A stretch of DNA of 64,000 nt from a bacterium (lineage in GTDB: Bacteria; Hinthialibacterota; Hinthialibacteria; OLB16): contig JAJVIK010000011.1 of NCBI GenBank assembly GCA_022072055.1, positions 308,597 through 372,596 on the forward strand, written 5' to 3'. This document shows positions 4,519 to 21,900 of this stretch, piece after piece. A program made the position numbers and the translations under genes. The notes beneath the pieces were generated by a model. The model searched no databases. It was not told the origin of the DNA and saw nothing but the letters and a program-made list of their open reading frames with translations. Numbering within the stretch: the first letter of the stretch is position 1; each line of letters opens with the position of its first letter.

Positions 4519-5262
4519 TCAGTCCCCCGCCTTCATCTCGCGAATCTCAAACCTTCGGATGGCCACGGGCCCGTGGTCGCCCTGGATCATCAGCGGGCCT
4601 TTGGGTTGCTCATCCTCGAAGGCCGCCGCGCGAGTCGGTCCGGTCACTTCGACATTCTCGTGAACCAGCTTCCCGTTGTGCAGGACCTTCACAAACCTGG
4701 CGTTGGCTGTCTTCTTTCCCGCCGCATCAAAACGCGGGGCGCGGAAAAGGACCTCGAAGGTCTGCCACTCGCCCGGGCGCTTGGAGGCGTTTACCTTGGG
4801 GGCATAGCCCTCGTAGCCCTTCTCATCCTTCCAGCGCTGGTAGATTCCGCCGCAGTCGGAATACGTTGGTTCCGCCACGCCCCAACTGTCCAGGATTTGG
4901 ACCTCGTAGCGCCCCTGGAAGTAGATCCCGGAGTTGGATTGAGGGGGGACCATGAACTCGATCCGCGCCTCGAGATCCCCGTGCTCCAACTTGGAGAAAA
5001 GATTCTCGGTGTGGCCATCGGGGCCGTTGACCAGGATGCCGCCGCCGGTCTGGGTCTCGATCTTCTTGGAGCCATCAGGCGCCGCGGTCGCCTCTCCGAC
5101 ATTGGTCCAGGTCCCAAAGCCCTCGCGCCAGGTTTCCATGCCCTCCTTGGATATCAGAGAAACCCAGTTCTTGCCTGAGTCGGCGGCGAAGGCGCCCGCA
5201 TTGAGACCCAAGCACCCCAAGGCGGCAAGCATGAAAGCGTGGATGGGACTTTTTTTTCTCAT
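4519..5262 (-). CDS. Secreted DUF1080 protein (3-keto-disaccharide hydrolase family)
   Basis: 247 residues from the ATG at 5262, chosen because it begins MRKK followed by a clear signal peptide ending in AFA-A and has an AGGGGGG ribosome site upstream. An in-frame extension would run back toward the tRNA gene and is not believed. The mature part is one concanavalin-like jelly roll typical of DUF1080, with conserved segments such as NSGIYFQGRYEVQILDS, ADCGGIY-like YSDCGGIYQR, and GPLMIQGDHGPVAIR near the end. Members are related to enzymes that cleave 3-keto-glycosides, or act as sugar-binding modules, in the periplasm. It works alongside Gfo/Idh/MocA-type oxidoreductases such as the two found later in the window; that link is inferred from family knowledge. 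Confidence 0.9.
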   Translation of the reverse strand: MRKKSPIHAFMLAALGCLGLNAGAFAADSGKNWVSLISKEGMETWREGFGTWTNVGEATAAPDGSKKIETQTGGGILVNGPDGHTENLFSKLEHGDLEARIEFMVPPQSNSGIYFQGRYEVQILDSWGVAEPTYSDCGGIYQRWKDEKGYEGYAPKVNASKRPGEWQTFEVLFRAPRFDAAGKKTANARFVKVLHNGKLVHENVEVTGPTRAAAFEDEQPKGPLMIQGDHGPVAIRRFEIREMKAGD

Positions 5263-8315: not shown

Positions 8316-9707
8316 CTACCCGGAAGGAGGCGGCGCATGGGTGTCCCCCACGCGCGTCATCCAATCCCGAAGCTCTTCGCGCAGCCCCGATAGGGTAGCG
8401 CGGTGCTCGGCCAGTGAGGCCAGATTGCGCATTTCGTAGGGATCGGACTCCTCATCGAACAGGGCCTCCTCGTTGGTGTCGGTGAGAATGTATTTCCAAC
8501 GTTTGGCGCGCGCCATCCGGTGTCCCATGCCGCGCTTCCCGCCCACGCCGACACACTCCGAAAAGACACACTCCCGAATTGCCCGCTCCGGCTCATGGAA
8601 CAACGGCGCGAGCGAGCGGCCCTCAAGCCACCCCGGCGCCGGGACTCCGGCAAGTTCCATGAGGGTCGGAAACAGGTCCAGGCTGGACACCAACTCGCGG
8701 CAGCGGACTCCTCGGGCCGGAAATCGGCCCCAGCGGACAAACATCGGGACTCGCACCGATTCCTCGTGCATGGTGATCTTGTTCCCCAGGCCATGATTAC
8801 CGAGGTGGTATCCGTTGTCCGAAAGGAACACGATCAGAGTGTTTTCGAGAAGCTCGGCCTGGCGCAGTCCCGCGACAAGGTCGCCGATCTGCTTGTCGAG
8901 ATGGCTGATGGTGGCGTAGTAAGCGCGGATGAACTCAATGGCCTGCTCGCGGGTGCGCGGCGGTCCGCTTCGGAGCCCTTGGTGGTCGGGCGGATATTCC
9001 GACTCCCGGTAATACCTCTCCCCCGGCAGCCCCTGGTTGTAGAGGCTTCCCTCCGGCGGGCTTTCCCGGAAATTCGGGTCGAGCGGGATTTCCTTGTCGC
9101 GGTACAGGGCGAGCCACTCCTCGCCGGGCTGGAGCGGAATGTGCGGCTGCTTGGCCCCCAACCAAAACAGAAAGGGCTTGCGATCCGAGGCTCGTTCCTT
9201 GAGAAACCGGGAGGCAAAGGCAAACGACTGGTGATCATCGATATCCCGGAACTCCTCCGCCGCCTGGAACCCGTAATCCCGTGGCGAGCCGAGGTGGGAT
9301 TTCCCCGCGAACCCAGTCAGATACCCGTGTTCGCCGAGCAGATGCGCGGGAGTGCGATAGCGCTTGTCCTCGATCACCGATTGTCGGAAACCGTTCCCAT
9401 CCAACCCCACGGAACCATGCTGTTGTGGAAAAATGCCGGTCAGCAAACTCGCGCGACTGGCGACACAAATCGGGGAGGCGACATAGGCGTTTTCAAAGAC
9501 GATTCCCTGGCTGGCCAGGTCGGTGAGGTGAGGAGTTTGAACCAAGCTGTTGGTGTAGCCGATGGCGCGGTAGGTTTGGTCGTCGGTGAGGATGATCAGG
9601 AAATTCGGGCGAGATTCACTGCTGTTTCCCACGCCGCCGAAAACCCGGGGCGCGGTGGCCCCCATCGCTCCTGCCGCCGCGCCTTTGAGGAAATCCCTGC
9701 GCTTCAC
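8316..9707 (-). CDS. Tat-exported type I sulfatase
   Basis: 463 residues from the GTG at 9707, supported by an AGGGGG ribosome site and by the Tat leader that follows (KRRDFLKGAAAGA). Upstream in-frame codons intrude into the next gene and are rejected. Family marks: metal-binding Asp-Asp in ILTDDQ (42-43), and the formylglycine signature C-V-A-S-R with Cys81 as the residue to be oxidised. Then come GFAGKSHLGSP, KPFFLFW-like KPFLFWLGAKQPH, and LSDNGYHLGNHGLGNK in the C-terminal half. It should hydrolyse sulfate esters on glycans after export. It needs a formylglycine-generating enzyme, which is not in this window. It lies in a minus-strand row with glycan-active genes. Confidence 0.95.
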   Translation of the reverse strand: MKRRDFLKGAAAGAMGATAPRVFGGVGNSSESRPNFLIILTDDQTYRAIGYTNSLVQTPHLTDLASQGIVFENAYVASPICVASRASLLTGIFPQQHGSVGLDGNGFRQSVIEDKRYRTPAHLLGEHGYLTGFAGKSHLGSPRDYGFQAAEEFRDIDDHQSFAFASRFLKERASDRKPFLFWLGAKQPHIPLQPGEEWLALYRDKEIPLDPNFRESPPEGSLYNQGLPGERYYRESEYPPDHQGLRSGPPRTREQAIEFIRAYYATISHLDKQIGDLVAGLRQAELLENTLIVFLSDNGYHLGNHGLGNKITMHEESVRVPMFVRWGRFPARGVRCRELVSSLDLFPTLMELAGVPAPGWLEGRSLAPLFHEPERAIRECVFSECVGVGGKRGMGHRMARAKRWKYILTDTNEEALFDEESDPYEMRNLASLAEHRATLSGLREELRDWMTRVGDTHAPPPSG

Positions 9708-9798
9708 CTTGGCCCCCTTGTTGTCGCTCGAGACCCTCGCCCTTTTCCGAGGTGAACGAATTGTGGCATGAAACCGGGAGCGTTCCAGCTGTGCTCGA

Positions 9799-11184
9799 TC
9801 AGAGTGGGGCCAGTGAATGGAGATATTCCTCCAGGTTAGTGAACCCATCGGTGTCGGAATCCCCATTTCGATCCGTGGGATCGGCCGGGTCGAGACCTTG
9901 GGCGGTTTCCCATTCATCCGGCATGCCATCCGAATCGCTGTCGGTCGGAGGGGCGCCGCCGACAAGTTCCGGCCATCCGCCGACTTCATCCTGCGAGTCA
10001 ATCAGCCTCCCCTTTCGATTCCGGATATCTTCGATTAGGCGCTTGTCGACGGAGTCGCGGGAGTGCGCGGCCCCGGCGCGTTCCAGTACCTGTTCGTAGG
10101 CCTCCAGCGCCGAATCCGTCTCAGGGGTGTCCGCCCCTAGGTCATAGGCCTCTTCCACTTTCCAATCCTGGATGGTCCCCGCGTATTTGTAGTTGGACTC
10201 GGGACCGAGCCAGCGCTCGAAGTCCAAGGCCAGGTAATTGTTTTCGGTCAGGTCGTTCCTCCCCTCGAAAAAGTTCCCGCTCATGTGTCCACGCGCCTTG
10301 TCCGGGAGGCTGGCCTTCATGGCGATGGGCAGTCGCTTGGGATCCGATTCCGGACCGGGCCGGAAGTAGTTGTTGATCAGGTTGACCTGGTTGTCGCACA
10401 CGTTCGCCGCGCCACTCCAGTTGTAAATCAGGTTGTTCCGGAAATCGATGATCCACTGGGGGTCCTGGACCGAACCTCCGATGGTCGGGTGACGGTCCCG
10501 GCTGGTGGCGAAGATGTTGTGATGGATGGTGATGTTGCCGAGCGGCGCCCGAAATGAGGCGCACATCGCGTGGGGGCCCTTGGGGTGGATGCTATCATTG
10601 AGGGCCTCGCTGAAGATGCACCACTGGAGCGTGTAGTTCTTGCAGCGCCGGATATCCTGAATGCCATCAATTCCCCAACTTGCCGAGACATGATCCAGGA
10701 TCACCCGGTCGCAGTCGTTCACCGTGATGGCGTCGGGCCCGGCCTTGGGACCTTTGTTCTTGTCGCCGAGGCGGACACGGAGGCGTCGGATGACAATATT
10801 GTCGGCGTCTTCAAGAACGAGGGTCTGGTCCTTGAGGGTGATCCCCTCGCCGGGGGCGGTTTGTCCGGCAAGGGTGAGTCCCGAGTGGCGGATCTTGAGA
10901 GGAGTTTTGAGTTCAATGGTTCCGCCAACCCGGAAAACAATGGTCCTTGGACCCCGCGCCGAGACGATCCCTTCACGAAGGGATCCGGGTCCGGAATCCT
11001 CGAGGTTGGTGACGGCATAGACATCCCCGCCGCGTCCCCCAGTGGAGAATCGCCCATACCCTTCCGCTCCGGGGAAGGCGATCACTTCAGGCTCGACGCG
11101 CTCGGCCCCGACGACTCCCGGCTCGATGAGGATCCAGGCGAGGAGGGCAATGGCTAGAAGAACGTTGGAATAAATCCACGACAT
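9799..11184 (-). CDS. Secreted pectate-lyase-like beta-helix protein with a C-terminal calcium-repeat tail
   Basis: 461 residues. The start at 11184 has an AAGGAG ribosome site and is followed by a signal peptide (MSWIYSNVLLAIALLAW...). The body begins VIAFPGAEGYGRFSTGGRGG and shows the pectate lyase pattern: TGGRGGDVYAVTNLEDSG, PGSLREGI, RTIVFRVGG, AGQTAPGEGI, ISWG-like VSASWG. It contains successive beta-helix turns. Near the C-terminus DSDSDGMPDEWE and NGDSDTDGFTNLEEY are thrombospondin type 3 / dockerin-like calcium motifs. The expected activity is beta-elimination of polygalacturonate or a related uronic-acid polymer. It is 91 bp upstream of the sulfatase on the same strand. Confidence 0.88.
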   Translation of the reverse strand: MSWIYSNVLLAIALLAWILIEPGVVGAERVEPEVIAFPGAEGYGRFSTGGRGGDVYAVTNLEDSGPGSLREGIVSARGPRTIVFRVGGTIELKTPLKIRHSGLTLAGQTAPGEGITLKDQTLVLEDADNIVIRRLRVRLGDKNKGPKAGPDAITVNDCDRVILDHVSASWGIDGIQDIRRCKNYTLQWCIFSEALNDSIHPKGPHAMCASFRAPLGNITIHHNIFATSRDRHPTIGGSVQDPQWIIDFRNNLIYNWSGAANVCDNQVNLINNYFRPGPESDPKRLPIAMKASLPDKARGHMSGNFFEGRNDLTENNYLALDFERWLGPESNYKYAGTIQDWKVEEAYDLGADTPETDSALEAYEQVLERAGAAHSRDSVDKRLIEDIRNRKGRLIDSQDEVGGWPELVGGAPPTDSDSDGMPDEWETAQGLDPADPTDRNGDSDTDGFTNLEEYLHSLAPL

Positions 11185-11295
11185 GAGGAAGGCTCCTTGG
11201 CCCCTTTCGGGCAGAAGAGAAGGCGAAAGGAGGAGAAGGAGGTCGCCTCCCTCCGCCAATGACCGTTTACGGGTCATGCACCCCGAATCCTAAAG

Positions 11296-11333: not shown

Positions 11334-12635
11334 TCACGCGACCGATTTCCACGGCTCCCGGTAATCGTAGTGGAGGAGGCGGTTGGCCTCCTCCGAGTTG
11401 GTGATCCTCTCGGCCTTGGCGTCCCACTCGATCCGGGTCTTCATCTCGTAGGCGATGTTCCCCAGGTGAGAGAGAGTGGTGGAGCGATGGCCTTCCTCGA
11501 CATCCCCAATCGGTTTCTCGCGGGATTTGACGCAATCCAGAAAGTTGCGGATGTGCAGCTGGGTGTCGTCGCCGCTTGAGTCCTTCGAGACAATCGGCTT
11601 GATTCTCGGCTCCCACTCCTGCATCTGCCCGCCGGATTCGGGGATGACCTCGTAGCCATCCCAACTGAGCGCGAGGGTTCCGAGCGTGCCGCGCAGTTCG
11701 GTCCCGCCTCGCGGGAGCGCGGCGTTGCCGCAGGCCTCGTATTGCCCAAAAGTGAGAATCCGGCCCGAGGCGAACTCGTAGGTCACCTCCAAGGTGTCGG
11801 GGATCGTGCGGTCATCGTCCACCGCGAAGTTTCCGCCATGAGCGGACACGGAAACCGGGGCGAGTTCATCCAGGAGAATGCGAACAATGTCAAAGTGGTG
11901 GACCCCCCAATTGCCGAGCTGCGAGGAATAATCCTTCCACCAACGGAATTTGTAGGGGGCGATGGTGGCGCGATAGGGACGATAGGGGGCGGGTCCCAAC
12001 CAAAGGTCCCAGTTGAAGCCGGGGGGCGGGTCCGAATCGGGCGCCTTCCCGATCCCGGTGGGGGTCATGTTGCTCTTGCGATAGGCGCGGATGACGGTGA
12101 CCTTGCCGATGGTTCCATCCTGAATCAGCGCTTGGATCTCCCCGAGGTCCTTCCGTGAGCGGTGCTGGGTCCCGGTCTGGACCACGCGGTTGTGCTTGCG
12201 GGTGACCTCGACCATCATTCGTCCTTCCCGGATCGTGCGTGTGAGAGGTTTTTCCACATACACGTCCTTTCCAGCCTGGCAAGCGAGGATGGTCTGAAGG
12301 GCGTGCCAATGGTCCGGCGTCACAATGACCACGGCGTCGATGTCCTTGCGGTCGAGGAGGCGCCGAAAGTCCTCATGCGCGTCCACCGCGCCACCGGCTT
12401 CCGAGACCCGCTTATCGAGGGTTTTCTTGTAGACATCGCAAAGGGCGACCAGCTGGACATCCTCGTTGGCTTGAAAGCCCCTGAGCAGGCTTCCGGCGCG
12501 CCCTCCGACTCCGATGAAGCCGACACGGATGCGTTCGCTGGCGCCATGGACGCGCTTGCTTGACATCGCCGTGGCAAGACTCGCGGCGGCGAGAGCGCCG
12601 CCTTTGACAAAGCTTCGGCGTGTGGTGGTGTTCAT
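11334..12635 (-). CDS. Tat-exported Gfo/Idh/MocA-family oxidoreductase
   Basis: 433 residues. A Tat leader TRRSFVKGGALAAAS is followed by a Rossmann fold with the GFIGVGGRAGS nucleotide-binding loop (39-49), CDVY, and the family motif E-K-P-L at 128-131, whose Lys129 is the usual catalytic residue. The C-terminal half is the alpha/beta substrate domain. Members oxidise or reduce sugars, including 3-keto-glycoside formation, with tightly bound NAD(P). Export by Tat as a folded, cofactor-loaded enzyme is typical of PVC-like and candidate-phylum bacteria. Its likely partners here are the DUF1080 protein and the second Gfo/Idh/MocA protein at 25472-26818. Confidence 0.92.
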   Translation of the reverse strand: MNTTTRRSFVKGGALAAASLATAMSSKRVHGASERIRVGFIGVGGRAGSLLRGFQANEDVQLVALCDVYKKTLDKRVSEAGGAVDAHEDFRRLLDRKDIDAVVIVTPDHWHALQTILACQAGKDVYVEKPLTRTIREGRMMVEVTRKHNRVVQTGTQHRSRKDLGEIQALIQDGTIGKVTVIRAYRKSNMTPTGIGKAPDSDPPPGFNWDLWLGPAPYRPYRATIAPYKFRWWKDYSSQLGNWGVHHFDIVRILLDELAPVSVSAHGGNFAVDDDRTIPDTLEVTYEFASGRILTFGQYEACGNAALPRGGTELRGTLGTLALSWDGYEVIPESGGQMQEWEPRIKPIVSKDSSGDDTQLHIRNFLDCVKSREKPIGDVEEGHRSTTLSHLGNIAYEMKTRIEWDAKAERITNSEEANRLLHYDYREPWKSVA

Positions 12636-13492: not shown

Positions 13493-15430
13493 TCACCGGT
13501 ATAGCGACCAGTTCTCCACGTCCGTGGTGACAAAGCAGGTGTCCTTGGCCCCCGCGTTCTTGGCGCCATCAATCGCCGCGGCCATGCCGTCGGCGCGGAT
13601 GAACAAGTAAGTCAGCGAAAGCGGATCCTGGTCGCAGTACACGTCCTCAAGGGCCGAGGCGGTGAGGGATCCCCCTCCGTGGACAATCGCCGCGGCCTCA
13701 GCCCCTCCAAACTGAGCGCTTGAGCTCAGGTCGACGAACACATTGAAGTTTTCGCTCATGGCCACCCCGGTGGAGGCCTGCGAAAGCGCGTTCACCCCCC
13801 ACTCGCTGAAGATGCAGTAGTCGATGGTGATCGGGTAAGCGCTGCCCGCCGTGTTGGTGACGCCGTTCTGGTTGTTGTCGTGGAACGTGCAATTCCTGAA
13901 CAAGGCGCTTCCGCCGGGAGAGGCGGTATCCTCGAAGGAAACGGCTGTGAACTGGCCGGTGAAGCTGCTGCGAAGAATGACAGTCCCGGTGACGGTCAGC
14001 GTGTTCGGACCGCTGGAGGCCGCGGCCCCTTGAACACGAATCGCGCGTTGGTTGTTCTCAAAAAGGCTGTTTGAGAAGGTGATCGAGGAATTCCGGATGT
14101 GGCGCGGTTCGGAGGGAGTTCCCCCGCTTCCCGTGTTCCCGTTGAAGCATTCAATGCCCGATTGAAAACCATGGATCGACGAATTGGTGATCCGCCAACT
14201 GGCGTCGGTGGATTCGAGGATCTTGAACCCTTGCTCCGCCTCGCCGGACATGGCGAGGATGTGGGCGTCATTGATCAGGAAAGTGGTGCGGTGGTCCTGA
14301 TCACAGGTGACCGCCTCCTCCGAATTGCCGGTCTGGAGGCCGTCGATGGTCACCTCCATGTTCGTGCTGTTCTGGATGCGCAGCGCCTCGTCGCCGCCGT
14401 CCGGTTTGTTTCCCGGGCTGCCGATATAGCTGCAATCCGTGATAATCACCTCGCCATCCGTGAACTCCTGGATATGATTCCCGCGCCCGTTATTGAAATT
14501 CTGGAAGATGCAGTTGGTCAGATAGACGTTCCCCGGGGTGAAGTTTCCCTTCCATTCGGCGCAGTGGCGGAACCCGTTCACGGTGCAGTTGGTCAACGAG
14601 AAGGTGGTGTTCTTGGCCCTTGTTTTGACCCCGATTCCCTGGTTGTTCCCCATCAAGGTCATGGGATCCCAGAGCGGCGCGCTGATGTGGGTGTTGGTGA
14701 TCGTCAGAGTGGTGAAATCCAGGTCCCCATCGTCATACTGAACGGCTCGGTCGGAGGCTCCCTCGTCCGTGGCCGCGATGTCGCAATTGTTGATGATGAT
14801 ATCCGTGTGCTGAACATCCACGACCTCCACGCCCCTTCCGCGAGTACTGCTGGAGGTGGTCGCCGACTTGCTGTTCCGCAGGATGTCACAATTGTCGATC
14901 GTGACGGTCGAACCTGTGGTTGGTCCGCTGCCGTCCACGAGCACGCCTCGTCCCTGGTTGTCATTCAGATCCGAGTTCCGGATGGTGATGCCGGAGGTGC
15001 TTGCGTCGATTGTCACCCCGTGACTCGCGTTCTGGGAGAGGATGCAATTGTCGACCAGGATCGCGGAAGCGGTGGTTTCGAAGATGGTGACCGCGGACCC
15101 AAGGGTGTTTTGGACCTGGATGTTCGATAGCGTGAAGGGATTGCCGGCGACGACGATTCGTATGTTTCCATCGATGATTGGAAGGGGATTCTGGCTGCTT
15201 GTCAGGATCCCGGTCGTGGCGAAGGTGGCGCTCTCAACATAGTTCGCCGCGGTGAGATTGACCGTGTCTCCCGCGTTCATGGCCGAGGCCGCCGCTTGGA
15301 TAGTGGTCTGATCCCCCGGGACATTGATTGTGGCCGCATGGATTCCTCCAATGCCTGCCAGGCACGCCAGAGTGGTGGCCAGGGCTAGACTAGGCGTGCT
15401 CCAACTCTTGAAAATCCGTGTCTCTCTCAT
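13493..15430 (-). CDS. Secreted right-handed parallel beta-helix protein, paralogue of the neighbouring BlaR1-like sensor domain
   Basis: 645 residues from the ATG at 15430, behind a strong AGGAGG site. The signal peptide ends near GIHA-A (33). From residue 34 it is a long run of parallel beta-helix turns (VTIDNCDILRN, LTITNTHIS, VYLTNCIFQNF and so on) with a Nosd/pectin-lyase character. Residues about 36-430 line up with residues 398-800 of the downstream-sensor protein at 15591-18434 almost without gaps: NPLP at 81 versus 444, GFRH at 286 versus 649, NGRG at 314 versus 677, GDEALRI at 346 versus 708, EEA at 371 versus 733. No obvious lyase catalytic site. It may bind or process a surface polysaccharide. 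It follows the sensor gene after 160 bp on the same strand. Confidence 0.88.
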   Translation of the reverse strand: MRETRIFKSWSTPSLALATTLACLAGIGGIHAATINVPGDQTTIQAAASAMNAGDTVNLTAANYVESATFATTGILTSSQNPLPIIDGNIRIVVAGNPFTLSNIQVQNTLGSAVTIFETTASAILVDNCILSQNASHGVTIDASTSGITIRNSDLNDNQGRGVLVDGSGPTTGSTVTIDNCDILRNSKSATTSSSTRGRGVEVVDVQHTDIIINNCDIAATDEGASDRAVQYDDGDLDFTTLTITNTHISAPLWDPMTLMGNNQGIGVKTRAKNTTFSLTNCTVNGFRHCAEWKGNFTPGNVYLTNCIFQNFNNGRGNHIQEFTDGEVIITDCSYIGSPGNKPDGGDEALRIQNSTNMEVTIDGLQTGNSEEAVTCDQDHRTTFLINDAHILAMSGEAEQGFKILESTDASWRITNSSIHGFQSGIECFNGNTGSGGTPSEPRHIRNSSITFSNSLFENNQRAIRVQGAAASSGPNTLTVTGTVILRSSFTGQFTAVSFEDTASPGGSALFRNCTFHDNNQNGVTNTAGSAYPITIDYCIFSEWGVNALSQASTGVAMSENFNVFVDLSSSAQFGGAEAAAIVHGGGSLTASALEDVYCDQDPLSLTYLFIRADGMAAAIDGAKNAGAKDTCFVTTDVENWSLYR

Positions 15431-15590
15431 CTTATTTCCTCCTGTTTTTCCCAACACTGACCTGGGTTCCCCACGCCAAGACGCGGTTATTCGTATGCCT
15501 GGACACACGGGTAACGTCACCATACATACACATCCTCACCACTTTGTCACACAACAAGCGAAGACTTCCCCCTTGCGATTCCTCCTCTTG

Positions 15591-18434
15591 CTACTCTCTC
15601 ATTGCGGTTTTCTTGATCGCCCTTGCACCTTTTAAGGTTGAGGCGAGCTGCTCATGTCCTGAATCCGCCAACAGGCGCTTTCGCGAGGCTGCCGGGCCTG
15701 CGGGTGCGTAGTCACTCAGGGTTGTTGCCCGGGTTTCACGTCCCGAGGGGGACAGACCCCGGGCCGCCGGGAATTCCATCACCGCGCCGAGCGAGGCCAG
15801 TTTCATGGGACGCTCCAGCTCTTGGATTCCCAAGCTCGGTTCTTCATGCCCGCAATTTCCCCCGGTTGATGCGGTAGTAATCCAATTGCCGTCTTGGCTC
15901 CCGCGACATGCTTCCTCGCCGCCTTTGTGGGTTGCTTCGCAATTCACTAAGGTCAGCTCCGTGCACTCATCGAGGGGGGAACCCTCAAGGCAGGTGGGCT
16001 GATCAATGTCAAGGAAGCGCGTGTCTCGGACCAGGATTTCCTGCGGGGCCGCAAGGGATGAGCAGCGAACTCCGGTCTGAAACTCCTTCACCAGAGAGCC
16101 TTCAACCCGGATCAAGGACCCGCCGTTCGACAGGAATTTGAAACCGTTCGCGCCCCCTCCAAGCCCCTTGTTCAGCTCGACCTGGGAGATCAGGACAGAG
16201 TCCAGGTGAAGGCACTGGTCGATGGTGATTGCCTCCTCGGTGTTGGAGGTGAAGATACGCTTGAGGTTGACCATCAAATTGGTGCAGAAACGGATCCGGA
16301 GCGCCTCGTCGCCGCCAACGGGCTTCACTCCGGGGTTGCCGATCAGAGAAACATTCTCCACAAGGGCGCGCCCGCTGAGCCCCTCCAGGATCAACCCGCG
16401 ACCGTTAACGAATCCTCTAAACTCCGAATCGGTGATGCTCGCCTCGGTCGGGAAACCTCGGGTCTTGACCTCCACCGCGTGCCTGAAACCGACAACCCTG
16501 CACTCATCAATCCTCACTGTCGCCGTGGCGGACTTGATCTTAAAGCCGATGCCATTGGTGTTCCCCGACCCGGTGAGGGGATCGAATACCGGAGCCATGA
16601 CCGTGGTGTTGAGGAAGCTGAAGTCCATGTCCTGAAGGTTGGGGCTATCCAATTGGATCGCCCGGTCCGCCTTCCCATCGGGCGTCACCAAGATCACCGA
16701 ATCGGCCACGCGAAGGATTCCGGCCTTCATGGAACCCAGCTGGATTGCCCTTCCTCGACTGCTGCTGTCCGTGGGAAAACTCAGGCCGTTCCGGGCCAGG
16801 AGACAGCCCTCAACCCGGATACTGGTCCCGGGCTGAACCCTCTCTGAGGAGAACTCGATTCCCCGTCGTCCGTTGTCCAGGATGTTCGAGCTCCTCACAT
16901 GGATCTCCGTGAAGGGGGAGTTCACCCAGATCCCACACGATCCGCTGCACACGATGTTCGACTCTTCGATGAAAACCTTGGAACCGGTCGCGGAGACGAT
17001 CTCCACTCCGTTTCCACCGGGGTTGGTGATCTCAATCCCATCCAAACGGAGCGCGCTTTCGGCGGCCTCAAAGCGGATCGCGCCCAGAAGCACCGGGAGG
17101 GGATTTGAGTGACTCACCAGCGCAAGGGAGTGGCGCACCCGAAAGCTCTCTTCATACACCCTGGAGTCGGTGATCTCGATCACATCCCCGGGCTTCGAAT
17201 GGGAAAGAGCCTCGGAAATTGTGGGGTATCGTTCGCCTTGTCCGACTGCAAGCACGGTCCGGTGCGAAAAGAACCGGTGCAAGGAAGCCACCAGACCATG
17301 TGGGCCGGGCAGATCCGGGTCACTCGCGTCACCGGAAAGCGGAACGGAAAGCGCCAGTCCCATCGAGGCCAACCACGCGCACAAGGTGGCCATCAGCGCG
17401 GTGCGGGTCAGGCGCTTGAGCCCCGAGGAGCTTCCAGAAAGAACCGCCTCGACTCGCTGCACGAAAGTGGATCTGCAGAGCACGATTCCGGCCGCCAAGC
17501 GGTTTACGGAGATTCGAGGGCCGCGAAGCGTCTCCGCGAAATGGACCAACAGCCTGGCGTACGCGAGCGGCTTTTGAGTGGCGTTGAGCACCGTCTCGTC
17601 GGCGGTCTGCTCGATCAGGGCCCCAATCTGCCGCGAGGCAAGCCACACAAGCGGGTGGAAGAAGAGGATCGCGCGCACAATCGCGATCCCGAAGAGCACC
17701 AGGGGGTCATGGCGCTTGACATGCGCCAATTCGTGCGCGGCCACCGCTAGTAGCTCATCGTCGCTCAGGCTCACGCCCAGGTCTCCGGGCACAAGCACGC
17801 ATGGGCGCCAAAGTCCCACGGTCAGCGGCGAATTCACCCGGCTGCTTTCACGAATCAGCACCTGTTTCCGCAGCGCCAGGAGCTCTCGCGCGGTTTCATG
17901 GAGCCGGAGCACGCGCCGATCTCGAACCGGTCTTGAGGTCGTGATCCAGGAGCGTATCCGCCATCGTCCCATCCCGATCTGAAGGAGCATTCCCCCCGCA
18001 ATCATTCCATACAGGCACACCAACAGCGCCCATGGGTAATCGAACGGAGTCCCCCGATCGGTCGCGGATGGGGTTTGCGCAGGGATCTGCGGAAACGCCG
18101 AAAGGGGAAGGAGCGCGTCATCCTCCCACGCCACCTCCGGACGAACCGTTGGGGCCACATGGGCGTTGGGGTCATAGGCGGGCAACACATAGACCGGAAC
18201 CTGGGGAGCCCCCATCCGGGACGCCGCGATGCTGAAGAAGGGGATTGTCGGCGTGGCCAGAACGGCCCACAACAGGAGACCGCGCCGGCTCGAGGCGGAG
18301 CGGCTTCTGAGCGCTCGCGACAGGAGAAACGCAAGCAGAAAGAGGATGGAGCTCTGCCACAGGAGACCCAAGAGGATCCTTGACGCGACAAATCCGAATT
18401 GGTCAAGCGTCTCCAGGACAGAGGGAGGAGTCAT
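15591..18434 (-). CDS. BlaR1/MecR1-like M56 metalloprotease with a beta-helix sensor domain
   Basis: 947 residues. Residues 1-370 are an M56 transmembrane peptidase: hydrophobic helices near 17-42, 51-72, 133-158, 243-268 and 343-366, zinc motif H234-E-L-A-H238 in VAAHELAHVKRHD, and a probable third ligand Glu275 in IEQTADETVL. After the last helix, residues 395-830 form an outward-facing parallel beta-helix in place of the beta-lactam-binding domain of true BlaR1. This sensor is a clear paralogue of the secreted protein encoded next. The tail (850-947) is low in structure. By analogy, ligand binding outside would switch on the cytoplasmic-side protease, which inactivates the BlaI-like repressor encoded upstream with a 4-bp ATGA overlap. 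The protease motif is intact. Ligand unknown, perhaps a polysaccharide. Confidence 0.88.
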   Translation of the reverse strand: MTPPSVLETLDQFGFVASRILLGLLWQSSILFLLAFLLSRALRSRSASSRRGLLLWAVLATPTIPFFSIAASRMGAPQVPVYVLPAYDPNAHVAPTVRPEVAWEDDALLPLSAFPQIPAQTPSATDRGTPFDYPWALLVCLYGMIAGGMLLQIGMGRWRIRSWITTSRPVRDRRVLRLHETARELLALRKQVLIRESSRVNSPLTVGLWRPCVLVPGDLGVSLSDDELLAVAAHELAHVKRHDPLVLFGIAIVRAILFFHPLVWLASRQIGALIEQTADETVLNATQKPLAYARLLVHFAETLRGPRISVNRLAAGIVLCRSTFVQRVEAVLSGSSSGLKRLTRTALMATLCAWLASMGLALSVPLSGDASDPDLPGPHGLVASLHRFFSHRTVLAVGQGERYPTISEALSHSKPGDVIEITDSRVYEESFRVRHSLALVSHSNPLPVLLGAIRFEAAESALRLDGIEITNPGGNGVEIVSATGSKVFIEESNIVCSGSCGIWVNSPFTEIHVRSSNILDNGRRGIEFSSERVQPGTSIRVEGCLLARNGLSFPTDSSSRGRAIQLGSMKAGILRVADSVILVTPDGKADRAIQLDSPNLQDMDFSFLNTTVMAPVFDPLTGSGNTNGIGFKIKSATATVRIDECRVVGFRHAVEVKTRGFPTEASITDSEFRGFVNGRGLILEGLSGRALVENVSLIGNPGVKPVGGDEALRIRFCTNLMVNLKRIFTSNTEEAITIDQCLHLDSVLISQVELNKGLGGGANGFKFLSNGGSLIRVEGSLVKEFQTGVRCSSLAAPQEILVRDTRFLDIDQPTCLEGSPLDECTELTLVNCEATHKGGEEACRGSQDGNWITTASTGGNCGHEEPSLGIQELERPMKLASLGAVMEFPAARGLSPSGRETRATTLSDYAPAGPAASRKRLLADSGHEQLASTLKGARAIKKTAMRE

Positions 18435-18835
18435 TTCCCGTTCAAATCCTTTCCCAGCTCATACTTGTCAATCAGCTCCTTGACCTCGGCGATCTCGTCC
18501 TCGCGGACAAGATTGGACTTGAGAAGAGCCACAACCAGACCGAGCGCGCTTCCCTCAAAGGCGCGATCCACCAGGTCTCGGATAAAACTGCGGTGAGCCT
18601 GGGTCCGGCTGATGGTGGTTCGATAGGCATGGCCACGTCCCTGCGGACGTCGCGCCACGTACCCCTTCTCTTGGAGGATTGAGAGCATCTTACGGACACT
18701 CGGCAACGCGAGCGGTTTGCCGTGATGGGCCAAGGCGTCCCGGATCTCCTCGACCGTGGCCTCCTCACGGTCCCAGACAATCTTCATGATCTCGAGCTCC
18801 AGCTCGGTCAGGGTTTTTGAGGGTCGACGAGCCAT
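18431..18835 (-). CDS. BlaI/MecI/CopY-family transcriptional repressor
   Basis: 134 residues. The N-terminal winged helix has the family pattern LTELELEIMKIVWDRE, TVEEIRDAL, SVRKMLSILQEKGYVAR. The C-terminal helices form the dimer domain (SFIRDLVDRAFEGSALGLVVALL). BlaI-type repressors bind DNA as dimers and are inactivated when a partner M56 protease is triggered. That partner is encoded directly downstream with a 4-bp overlap. Two GCGAA-N4-TTCGC palindromes flank its promoter, consistent with autoregulation. The GGAAGG ribosome site is about 11 nt ahead of the ATG, slightly far. The classical TACA/TGTA box of beta-lactamase operons is not seen, so the target site differs. Confidence 0.93.
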   Translation of the reverse strand: MARRPSKTLTELELEIMKIVWDREEATVEEIRDALAHHGKPLALPSVRKMLSILQEKGYVARRPQGRGHAYRTTISRTQAHRSFIRDLVDRAFEGSALGLVVALLKSNLVREDEIAEVKELIDKYELGKDLNGK

Positions 18836-18873
18836 TCAGTGTAAAACCTTCCTTTCAACAGCGGATTCGCATA

Positions 18874-18893
18874 TCCGCGAAACAATTCGCGGA
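18874..18893 (-). promoter_or_regulatory. Operator O2 of the BlaI-like repressor (covers expected start site)
   Basis: TCCGCGAA-N4-TTCGCGGA is a perfect 8-bp inverted repeat with a 4-bp spacer, immediately after the -10 element on the minus strand and so over the expected transcription start. Its core GCGAA-N4-TTCGC is identical in arms and spacing to the site at 18925-18938. A further GCGAA half-site follows at 18866-18870. Confidence 0.7.
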
Positions 18894-18895
18894 GG

Positions 18896-18924
18896 ATACT
18901 ACTTCCCCCTCGGTCGCGTGTCAA
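18896..18924 (-). promoter_or_regulatory. Promoter of the repressor-sensor operon
   Basis: On the minus strand a perfect TTGACA (18924-18919) and TAGTAT (18901-18896) are spaced by exactly 17 bp. The leader to the ATG at 18835 is about 50 nt. Both ends touch or nearly touch a palindromic operator, so a bound repressor would block polymerase. Confidence 0.78.
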
Positions 18925-18938
18925 GCGAATTTTTTCGC
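18925..18938 (-). promoter_or_regulatory. Operator O1 of the BlaI-like repressor (abuts the -35)
   Basis: GCGAA-N4-TTCGC, perfect 5-bp arms, ends directly against the TTGACA of the promoter. The centre lies 48 bp from the centre of the second operator. Same arms and spacer as O2. Confidence 0.68.
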
Positions 18939-18971
18939 CTTTAACCGGGCACCCTCGGCCCCACACTCCAA

Positions 18972-21900
18972 TCAAGCCATCCGGACCGCTTCTTGCTCGA
19001 TCTGTCTCGCGGGTGTGTGGCTGCGCAGGAAGGACCGAAGGGCTTCCATGTATATGTAGAAAACCGGGGTGATGTAAAGGGTCAGGAACTGAGAAACCAG
19101 CAACCCCCCGACCACCGCGAGTCCCAAAGGCCTTCTCGCCTCGGACCCCGCTCCAAGGGCCAGGGCGATCGGAAGCGTCCCCATCAGCGCTGCGAGTGTG
19201 GTCATCATGATGGGGCGGAAACGGATCACACAGGCCCGGAAGATCGCCTCGGCGGGCTCCAAATGGGAGGCGCGCTGAGCCTCGATGGCAAAATCAATCA
19301 TCATGATCGCGTTCTTCTTCACAATCCCAACCAGCATGATGATTCCAACGAAGGAGTAGACATTCAGATCCATCCCGAAGATCAGGAGAGTGACGAGCGC
19401 CCCCACACCCGCCGACGGCAGTCCCGAGAGGATCGTGATCGGATGGATGAAACTTTCATAGAGTATCCCCAGAACAATGTAGATCACAAGAATCGCGGCA
19501 AGGAGCAAGTATCCCAGCCCACGGCTGGAGGATTCGAAGGCTTGCGCGGTCCCTTGGAAGCTCGTGTTGATCCCCGCCGGAAGGACCTCCCGGGCGGCTT
19601 CGTTCACCTTGGCGACGGCGGTTCCGAGCGAGATCCCAGGGGCCAGGCTGAAGGAAAGGGTCACCGCCGGGAGCTGCCCCAAATGGGTGACAGTCAGCGG
19701 GCCCACCGACTTCCTGACCGTGGCGATGGTCTCGAGTGGGATCAGGTCCCCATCCCGCGACCGGATATACAGCCTCGATAGGACAGTCGGATCGAGTTGG
19801 AACTCGGGCGCCAATTCGAGGATCACCTGGTACTCATTGTTCGGGCCATAGATGGTCGAGACCTGGCGGGAGCCATAGGCCGAGAAGAGGGCGGTTTCGA
19901 TCCGCTCCACGCTCACCCCCAGGGAGGCCGCCTTGTCCCGGTCGATCTGGATCCGCGCCTCGGGGTTGCTGATCTGCAAGTCGCTGGTGACATCCTGGAA
20001 GCCCTCGATCCCGCGCAACCTCTCCTCAAGGACCGGAGCATGGCGATAGAGGTTTTCGGTGTCCGGGGATTGAAGCGTGAATTGGTACTGGCTCTTGGTG
20101 AATTGTCCCCCGATGCGAATCGAGGGGGGATTCTGGAAGAAGACTCGGATCCCGGGAAGGTCGGCGGTCTTTCGACGCAGGCTTTGGATGATCTCCTCCA
20201 CTCCCGGGCGCTCTTCCCGGGGCTTCAGTTGGATCAGCATCCTCCCCGCGTTGGAGGTGCTTGTCGATCCTCCGGTTCCCACCGAAGACATGAAACCCTG
20301 GACTCCCGGCTCCGCCTCGACAATGGCGGCGGCCCCTCGCTGATTGCGGACCATCTCCTCGAACGAGATGCCCTGCGCGGCTTCGGTGACCGCCGAAATC
20401 TGTCCGATGTCCTCGCTCGGGAGAAACCCTTTTGGCATGGTCACGAACAAATATCCGGTCAGGACCACCAGGGGGATCAAGATCGAAAAGGTCAGGAGCC
20501 TCCAGCGGAGGGCCCAGGCCAGGGAGGCCTCATAGGCGCGCAACATCCCATCGAAGAGCCGCTCAAGCGCGTTATAGAGGATGCCGTGCCTGTTTCCCGC
20601 CGGACGAAGAAACCGGGAACAGAGGGTTGGGGTCTGGGTGAGCGACACAAATCCGGAAATCAGAATCGCCATGGCGATGGTCACGGAAAACTCCCGGAGC
20701 AAGCGGCCCATCAGACCCCCCATGAACAGAACCGGAATGAACACCGCCGCCAGCGAGAGGGTCATGGAGACGATCGTGAAGCCGATCTCCCGGGAGCCTT
20801 TGAAGGAGGCTTCGAGGGGAGTTTCGCCATGCTCCATGTGGCGGACGATGTTCTCGATCATGACAATGGCGTCATCCACGACGAATCCCACGGAGAGGGT
20901 GAGGGCCATCAAGGTGAGGTTGTTCAGGCTGTATCCGAGGAGGTGCATGACCGCGAAGCTCCCGACCACGGAGAGGATCAACGCCAAGCTCGGAATCACC
21001 GTGGCGGTGATGTTCCGCAGGAAGAGAAAGATGACCAGGATCACCAGCGAGATGGTGAGCGCCAGGGTGAACTTCACCTCGTGGACCGACTCGCGAATGC
21101 TCCGTGATCGGTCGGAGAGAATGTTGAGTTTCATGGCCGCGGGCATCTGGGCTTCAAAGGTCGGCAGGAGTTCGCGGATGTTGTCCACGACCTCGACCGT
21201 GTTGGTTCCCGGCTGACGCTGGATGGCAAGCACAATCGCCCTCTCGTTGTTGAACCAGCCCGCCGCGCGGTCATCCTCCACGCTATCCGCCGCTTCTCCC
21301 AGGTCGGAGATCCGGACGGGGGAATTGTCACGCCATGTGACCACGACATCTTCGTACAGGACGGCGCGGGCCAGCTGCCCCTCGCTTTCCACGGTGTACG
21401 CATGGTGCGCGCCTTGGAGGTCGCCCGTGGGCATGTTGACATTGGCCTCACGGATCGCTTCCGCGACCTCATCGATCCCGATCTCCTTGGACGCAAGCGA
21501 CTCGGGGTTCACTCGGATGCGAACCGCGTACTTCTGGGAGCCGTAGACGGAGACCTGAGCGACCCCGTTGACCATGGAGATGCGCTGGGCGATGAAGGTG
21601 TCGGCGAATTCATCCACCTCCGAGAGCGGGAGCGCCGAGGAGCTCAGCGCAAGGTAAAGGATAGGCTGGTCGGCGGGGTTGACCTTGCGATACGAAGGAG
21701 GGGTCGGCATGTCCTCGGGCAGGGATCGGATCACCCGGCTGATCGCGGATTGGACATCCAGCGCGGCGGCGTCAATGTCCCGCCCCAGATCGAACTGAAG
21801 CGTGATCCGCGTCTGGCCAAGGGAGCTGACCGAGGACATCGAGTCCAGGCCGGCGATGGTCGTGAATTGACGTTCGAGGGGGGTGGCCACGGTTCCGGCA

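Follow-up and report, generated by a model that had tools for sequence, protein, structure and literature searches.

We consider it very probable that the two palindromes flanking the promoter of a BlaI/MecI-family repressor gene, in the 64-kb window (the whole stretch of DNA that was analysed), are dimer operators of the adjacent repressor, which would repress its own operon and two PelZ-like units elsewhere in the genome, while the beta-helix domain of a neighbouring M56 protease would sense a polysaccharide and relieve the repression. The sequence and position of the sites, a 6-4-6 frame shared across the family, the agreement between recognition helix and half-site and the identity of the non-coding genomic sites were computed here; from these we infer binding, repression, shared transcripts, the ligand and proteolysis.

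Two identical palindromes bracket the repressor promoter

Read on the minus strand, the region upstream of the repressor gene runs GCGAA-AAAA-TTCGC, TTGACA, 17 bp, TAGTAT, two bases, TCCGCGAA-TTGT-TTCGCGGA, a lone GCGAA and then the start of the 134-residue gene at 18835. The elements are as follows.

18925..18938, unstranded: candidate operator site A, GCGAA-N4-TTCGC (GCGAAAAAATTCGC on the minus strand), abutting the -35
18919..18924, minus strand: -35 hexamer TTGACA, from the promoter scan
18896..18901, minus strand: -10 hexamer TAGTAT, spacer 17, from the promoter scan
18874..18893, unstranded: candidate operator site B, TCCGCGAA-N4-TTCGCGGA, with 8-bp arms and a core at 18877-18890
18866..18870, minus strand: third half-site, a GCGAA with no partner arm, at 20 bp from the first half-site of site B

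A promoter scan of 18400-19100 returned TTGACA-N17-TAGTAT (10/12 matches) as the sole promoter, and the original prediction that GCGAA-N4-TTCGC lies on both sides of it was borne out, with copies at 18877-18890 and 18925-18938. As had been proposed, one copy touches the -35 (site A directly adjoins TTGACA at 18924-18919), the other follows the -10 at 2-3 bp with arms extended to 8 bp (those of site B begin after two bases), and a third half-site, the lone GCGAA at 18870-18866, lies further downstream.

Single 5-4-5 palindromes are common, and when one mismatch is allowed the window contains 5 sites against 4.3 expected, as would be the case if these were chance palindromes in G+C-rich DNA. The excess vanishes at one mismatch, therefore the signal resides in the exact pair: exact GCGAA-N4-TTCGC occurs twice in the 64-kb window, both times at the repressor promoter, against 0.09 expected per window, and two exact copies were found in 0/100 shuffles. 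With the motif left free, this is the sole pair of identical-arm 5-4-5 palindromes no more than 100 bp apart in 64 kb, shuffles giving a mean of 0.02 such pairs per window (at least one pair in 2/100 shuffles). Together with the location of the pair on either side of the only scored promoter, these counts leave chance a negligible probability.

The 8-bp arms of site B, just past the -10, could also pair in RNA. That site B is an mRNA hairpin and site A incidental is nevertheless extremely unlikely, since site A precedes the promoter and is not part of this transcript, transcription starting about 7 bp past the -10 would begin inside the left arm of site B, the leader folds no better than shuffled sequence (z 0.06) and the scan found no terminator.

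The repressor and its operator frame across PF03965

The gene downstream of these sites encodes a regulator of the BlaI/MecI family.

18431..18835, minus strand: BlaI/MecI-family repressor, 134 aa, recognition helix PSVRKMLSIL (PF03965 E 1.7e-27; MecI 1sd6 E 5e-7)

The Penicillinase_R domain (PF03965) scores 96.5 bits, above the curated cut-off of 22.6, and residues 9-124 align with MecI 8-122 in a full-length match to a solved structure (E 5e-7); 1SAX, 2D45 and 1XSD, which we take to be structures containing DNA, are among the structure matches. The NCBIfam equivalog and exception cut-offs were missed, CopY_TcrY being the best at 50.9 of 121.95 bits and BlaI_of_BCL reaching 39.7 of 180. The 134-aa translation contains no cysteine and therefore lacks the C-terminal CxC metal motifs of CopY/CopR. 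No orthologue was found in the phylum-mates compared, where the best match has 38% identity. The position of the palindromes and the family frame suggest that the repressor shares the PF03965 trait of a dyad operator at its own promoter.

The frame was examined in 196 upstream regions of PF03965 genes gathered from genomes of many phyla together with 14 named records. At a spacing of 4, exact inverted arms of 6 bp were counted 141 times, compared with 19.0 in dinucleotide shuffles; for the remaining spacings between 0 and 16 the counts are 25 to 91, with 15 to 25 in shuffles. Relatedness inflates the 141, since some 30 of the genes (L064-L093), all of one class, are nearly identical. At least one exact 6-4-6 copy lies upstream of 108/196 genes. 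The half-sites themselves differ across the family, and include TACTAA, TACTAT, TACGAA, AACTAA, TGCTAA, TCCTAA, GATTAC, TGAGAA, CGATCA and more. The earlier description of the window motif as unlike the TACA/TGTA box is thus literally true, the operator core of beta-lactam-resistance BlaI/MecI being absent at the window sites and replaced by GCGAA-N4-TTCGC, but the site fits the 16-bp dyad frame of the family, in which half-site variety (TACTAA, TACGAA, TGCTAA, TGAGAA, CGATCA) is common.

The closest repressors (43-48% identity) come from the class of genome G253, represented by four genomes and kin to the window genome only at the level of the same domain. In this clade, whose helices carry RK, RN or RR and which has M56-like neighbours in several loci, 7/12 genes examined carry a matching pair bracketing the promoter, in which the first palindrome precedes the -35 by 6-8 bp, the second follows the -10 by 1-9 bp and the centres are 52-62 bp apart; the same three measures for the window 16-mers are -1, 4 and 48. 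The bracket geometry is shared, whereas the half-sites (TGAGAA, CGATAA, CGATCA, AGCTAA, TACGAC) differ from those of the window and from one another, so that conservation is at the level of architecture, not of the letters. At locus L226 the repressor has an SIRN helix and both promoter-flanking sites are asymmetric, pairing a GCTAA arm with a GCGAA arm. The proposal of an autoregulated switch is well supported by this comparison, which points to 6-4-6 dyads at the promoters of PF03965 genes across phyla and to the same bracketing among the nearest relatives.

Recognition-helix residues and half-site letters

The relation between helix and half-site was derived from a training set in which 223 genes gave 125 operator calls, of which 90, the window gene included, were kept at less than 70% identity. 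A held-out set of 116 genes gave 67 calls and 52 non-redundant genes, the rules having been written before these genes were fetched; 80 held-out regions were hand-picked down a list and spread over genomes before any sequence was seen, and 36 further loci were added, 5 of which are G315 genes already in training (0 among the 52). Genes with less than 100 bp upstream, a gap in the helix columns or no operator call were dropped from both helix sets. The held-out genes come almost all from one phylum already in training, and subfamilies are therefore shared between the sets.

Among the 90 training genes half-site position 2 is best informed by helix offset a (z 10.9), position 4 by a+1 (z 8.9) and position 6 by a+5 (z 12.5); these offsets correspond in MecI to R46, T47 and R51 (residue numbers counted on the MecI sequence). 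Arginine at offset a goes with G2 in 21/25 genes against 2/63 otherwise in training, and in 12/15 against 3/35 in the held-out set. Lysine at a+1 (rule b) goes with G4 (15/16 against 9/74 in training, 9/10 against 5/42 held-out), and arginine at a+5 with C6 (23/30 against 7/56 and 9/10 against 3/38, respectively). For the window repressor, with R, K and I at a, a+1 and a+5, the rules predict xGxGxA, and the observed half-sites are (C/G)GCGAA, that is CGCGAA and GGCGAA. The open-access literature searched reports no recognition code for the BlaI/MecI family.

Several results bear on how far these rules reach. In predicting half-sites by nearest neighbours the rest of the protein has a small advantage over the seven helix residues (0.295 versus 0.337, with 0.558 for random), and the partial Mantel value is 0.10 for the helix given the rest (reached by 23/2000 permutations) versus 0.31 for the rest given the helix. 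In a tree from which the helix columns were left out, at least 6 changes were counted for each of K at a+1 and R at a, but only one independent pair per rule (a and b) falls on well-supported branches; it goes in the same direction in most random pairings and in the opposite one in very few. These comparisons suggest that ancestry accounts for much of the helix-operator correlation, and tree-independent support for the code is weak. Exceptions include L225 and L347 (both K with T4), L124 (R with A2) and MecI itself (R with the published ATTACA half-site); an absolute one-residue code is ruled out by L225 and by the MecI-type R with A2.

Among the paralogues in the same genome, that with R, S and I at the three offsets (L003) has right arms reading TGCGGA, that with V, T and R (L004) has TAC-N4-GTA, and that with L, T and R (L001) has an imperfect site only. 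The four PF03965 paralogues of this genome thus appear to differ in operator (GCGAA, GCGGA, TAC-N4-GTA and imperfect), and by these readings they are possibly parallel, insulated switches.

The palindromes might instead bind another regulator, with the repressor using a classical half-site such as GTAGTA, which overlaps the -10, and indeed GAAGTAGTAT holds a classical TAC/GTA half-site. However, GTAGTA lacks an inverted partner, and GCGAA is favoured by the 6-4-6 frame, by the way the nearest clade brackets its promoters and by the helix rules, making this arrangement very unlikely.

An M56 protease with a beta-helix domain in a polysaccharide-related cluster

The genes that follow the repressor on the same strand are listed below.

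15591..18434, minus strand: M56 (BlaR1-type) membrane protease, HELAH, with a right-handed beta-helix C-terminal domain (PF05569 E 3.2e-27; PF13229 2.3e-7; NF000326 1.1e-25, under its cut-off)
13493..15523, minus strand: stand-alone beta-helix protein, same domain as the M56 ectodomain (34% over 388 aa), the only other copy in this genome
12729..13406, minus strand: pseudopilin-like protein (PF07963)
11334..12635, minus strand: Gfo/Idh/MocA-type oxidoreductase (PF01408)
9799..11277, minus strand: PelZ-like pectate lyase, third member of a family whose other two have a site upstream (NF041900 8.3e-42, under its cut-off)
8316..10001, minus strand: sulfatase, ORF as listed (PF00884 E 1.7e-46)
4519..5232, minus strand: 3-keto-disaccharide hydrolase, co-directional (PF06439 E 2.2e-30)

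The protease gene overlaps the repressor gene by 4 bp, and its product has the M56 domain with the HExxH motif characteristic of BlaR1/MecR1 (HELAH in the translation). Pfam finds no penicillin-binding extracellular domain of the BlaR1/MecR1 kind in this protein, and a Beta_helix domain stands in its place. The structure model of the C-terminal part is a beta-helix (mean pLDDT 65, with most of residues 40-440 at 65-95 and a low-confidence tail), and Foldseek matched it best to polysaccharide lyases, sugar-binding tailspikes and pectin methylesterases, with a TM of 0.46 at most; these generic, low-TM matches indicate a predicted fold and not a ligand. BLASTP detected no similarity of the M56 sensor domain to the PelZ-like lyase, nor of the stand-alone beta-helix protein to the L390 lyase, so that the likeness is in fold only. 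Beyond these two genes, the sensor domain has no other copy in this genome and two weak matches in the other 97 genomes searched.

After the beta-helix gene the same-strand order is pseudopilin, oxidoreductase, PelZ-like pectate lyase, sulfatase, a 637-aa protein and 3-keto-disaccharide hydrolase. The listed sulfatase ORF overlaps the PelZ-like ORF, and its true start is therefore probably further in. Upstream of the repressor, Pfam identifies an RND pump and its HlyD partner. Among the neighbours at 4.5-24.4 kb of the window, Pfam finds polysaccharide-degradation genes and no beta-lactamase or PBP.

Non-coding sites elsewhere in the genome precede PelZ-like units

The window's own genome (5.86 Mb, 32 contigs) was searched for the exact motif, with genes called by a codon-usage gene caller written for this analysis. 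In number the sites are at chance, 17 for GCGAA-N4-TTCGC versus 15 for the reversed pattern, and a broad regulon was rejected on this count. The original prediction was to be refuted by a random spread with no promoter bias, and the non-coding sites are non-random. Thirteen of the 17 lie inside genes and 4/17 are intergenic, all of these at gene starts and two of them at PelZ-like units, versus 0/15 intergenic in the reversed control (15/15 inside genes). The four are sites A and B, C6:289673 (L011) and C8:57389 (L012), the site end lying 41 bp from the ATG at site B, 40 bp at L011 and 43 bp at L012. The L012 site precedes a PelZ-like lyase gene, and the L011 site precedes a ThuA-like gene which overlaps a gene for a PelZ-like lyase with BNR repeats. 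A genome search with the L012 protein returned exactly three members, the L011 and L012 lyases and the window gene at 9799-11277, located in the repressor's cluster, downstream of the repressor gene and on the same strand. Outside the window 2/15 sites are intergenic, equal to the expectation from about 12% non-coding DNA (a window estimate); what is non-random is that both fall at a three-member lyase family whose third member is in the repressor's cluster, a link noticed after the fact. A heparinase II/III-like gene (L391:3919-6729), another polysaccharide lyase type, is divergent from the L012 lyase gene.

The promoter scan scored no sigma-70 promoter at L011 or L012. At L011 an imperfect TTGACT-N17-TAGCCT, seen by eye and unscored by the scan, stops four bases short of the site, an arrangement close to that at site B.

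The palindromes could be operators of this repressor with a regulon confined to its own operon, the two lyase-linked sites being coincidence. The equality of site number with the reversed control, the lack of a scored promoter at L011 and L012, the after-the-fact nature of the lyase link and the very small size of the BlaI and CopY regulons described in PMC8457756 and PMC7253601 are all consistent with such a confined regulon. However, both other intergenic sites precede units containing 2/3 of the PelZ-like genes, at nearly the same distance from the ATG as site B, with the third gene in the repressor's cluster and no intergenic site in the control, and we consider coincidence rather unlikely.

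Other candidate sites were set aside. One-mismatch W-rich sites gave 49 rows versus 9 in the control, but 26/32 loci examined lie inside genes (33 one-mismatch loci were examined, the L373 row being void as it is clipped at a contig end). A one-mismatch site, GAGAAATAATTCGC, 117 bp upstream of a pseudopilin gene (L386, C4:145823) was judged too weak; that pseudopilin is 38% identical to the one in the window cluster over 179 aligned positions. The site with an AT spacer at L008 lies inside an ORF of sulfatase type, by reading of the translation. The imperfect palindrome GCGAATCAATCCGC occurs exactly three times in the genome (C1:63250, C4:122189 and C5:274465), twice within predicted genes and once in an intergenic position about 90 bp before a predicted gene.

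A proposed mechanism and its relation to known switches

In the mechanism that we propose, repressor bound at site A would exclude sigma from the -35, while repressor at site B would cover the start region and block the start, so that bound repressor would shut off its own operon. This operon would comprise the repressor, the M56 protease and the beta-helix protein, possibly with the co-directional sulfatase and lyase genes after them. The third GCGAA half-site, which would lie on the same helix face because it is 20 bp from the first half-site of site B, may help a further protomer to bind. Single copies of the site upstream of the two other PelZ-like units would place both under the same repressor. 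By analogy with the BlaR1 model (PMC9834060), the beta-helix ectodomain would sense a polysaccharide or a fragment of one and thereby activate the M56 protease, which would then cleave or displace the repressor.

Most of what is known of BlaI, MecI and CopY repressors comes from resistance genes that have TACA/TGTA operators (PMC7253601). Like S. aureus BlaI-BlaR1 and MecI-MecR1, the window system combines a PF03965 repressor of similar length with an M56 protease gene in one unit and a predicted dyad operator at its own promoter; the gene order here is repressor, then protease. It differs in the half-site, which in S. aureus is ATTACA/TACA (consensus quoted in PMC5341023) and here GCGAA, and in the sensor, described for BlaR1 as class-D-beta-lactamase-like (PMC9834060) whereas the window protein has a beta-helix ectodomain. 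The two-layer block suggested for sites A and B parallels that proposed for CopY, whose 16-base operator (RNYKACANNTGTMRNY) is a dyad present in two copies at one promoter, the distal one proposed to block the -35 and the proximal one to occlude RNA polymerase, and in which position 4 may be G or T (PMC7253601). CopY/CopR differ from the window repressor, which has neither cysteine nor a CxC metal motif and is partnered here by an M56 protease. The C. thermocellum proteins BlaI_0696 and BlaI_1845 bind GTCTAT and GACTAT repeats and regulate themselves, and they resemble the proposed window system in their non-TACA half-sites, self-regulation, tiny regulons and BlaR1 in the operon; they differ in the half-site itself and, in the portion of PMC8457756 consulted, no lyase link is reported. 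In Zobellia, BlaI is listed as one of the regulator families that polysaccharides induce (PMC5613140). In the open-access literature searched we found no BlaI/M56 system with a tie to pectate lyases or polysaccharide utilization.

In our best reading the window system is a switch of a known type, set apart by its new operator half-site, its unusual sensor and a probable link to polysaccharide lyases, and a switch familiar from antibiotic resistance seems to have been reused for the breakdown of sugar polymers. The fullest version of this reading joins two proposals: that the BlaI/M56 proteolytic switch now serves to sense polysaccharides, with a lyase-type beta-helix ectodomain in place of the penicillin sensor and the PelZ-like lyases of the genome as its regulon, and that across PF03965 the operator may be read from three helix residues (R in the R46 column for G2, K in the T47 column for G4 and R in the R51 column for C6). 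We regard the case for and against that combined statement as evenly balanced.

If the reading is correct, PF03965 would be a family of widespread switches with operators that vary in step with the recognition helix, and one switch of this genome would be tied to the breakdown of plant- or algal-type polymers. If the helix code is true, the operators of many unstudied PF03965 members would be predictable, and the rules would allow regulons to be predicted in uncultured phyla.
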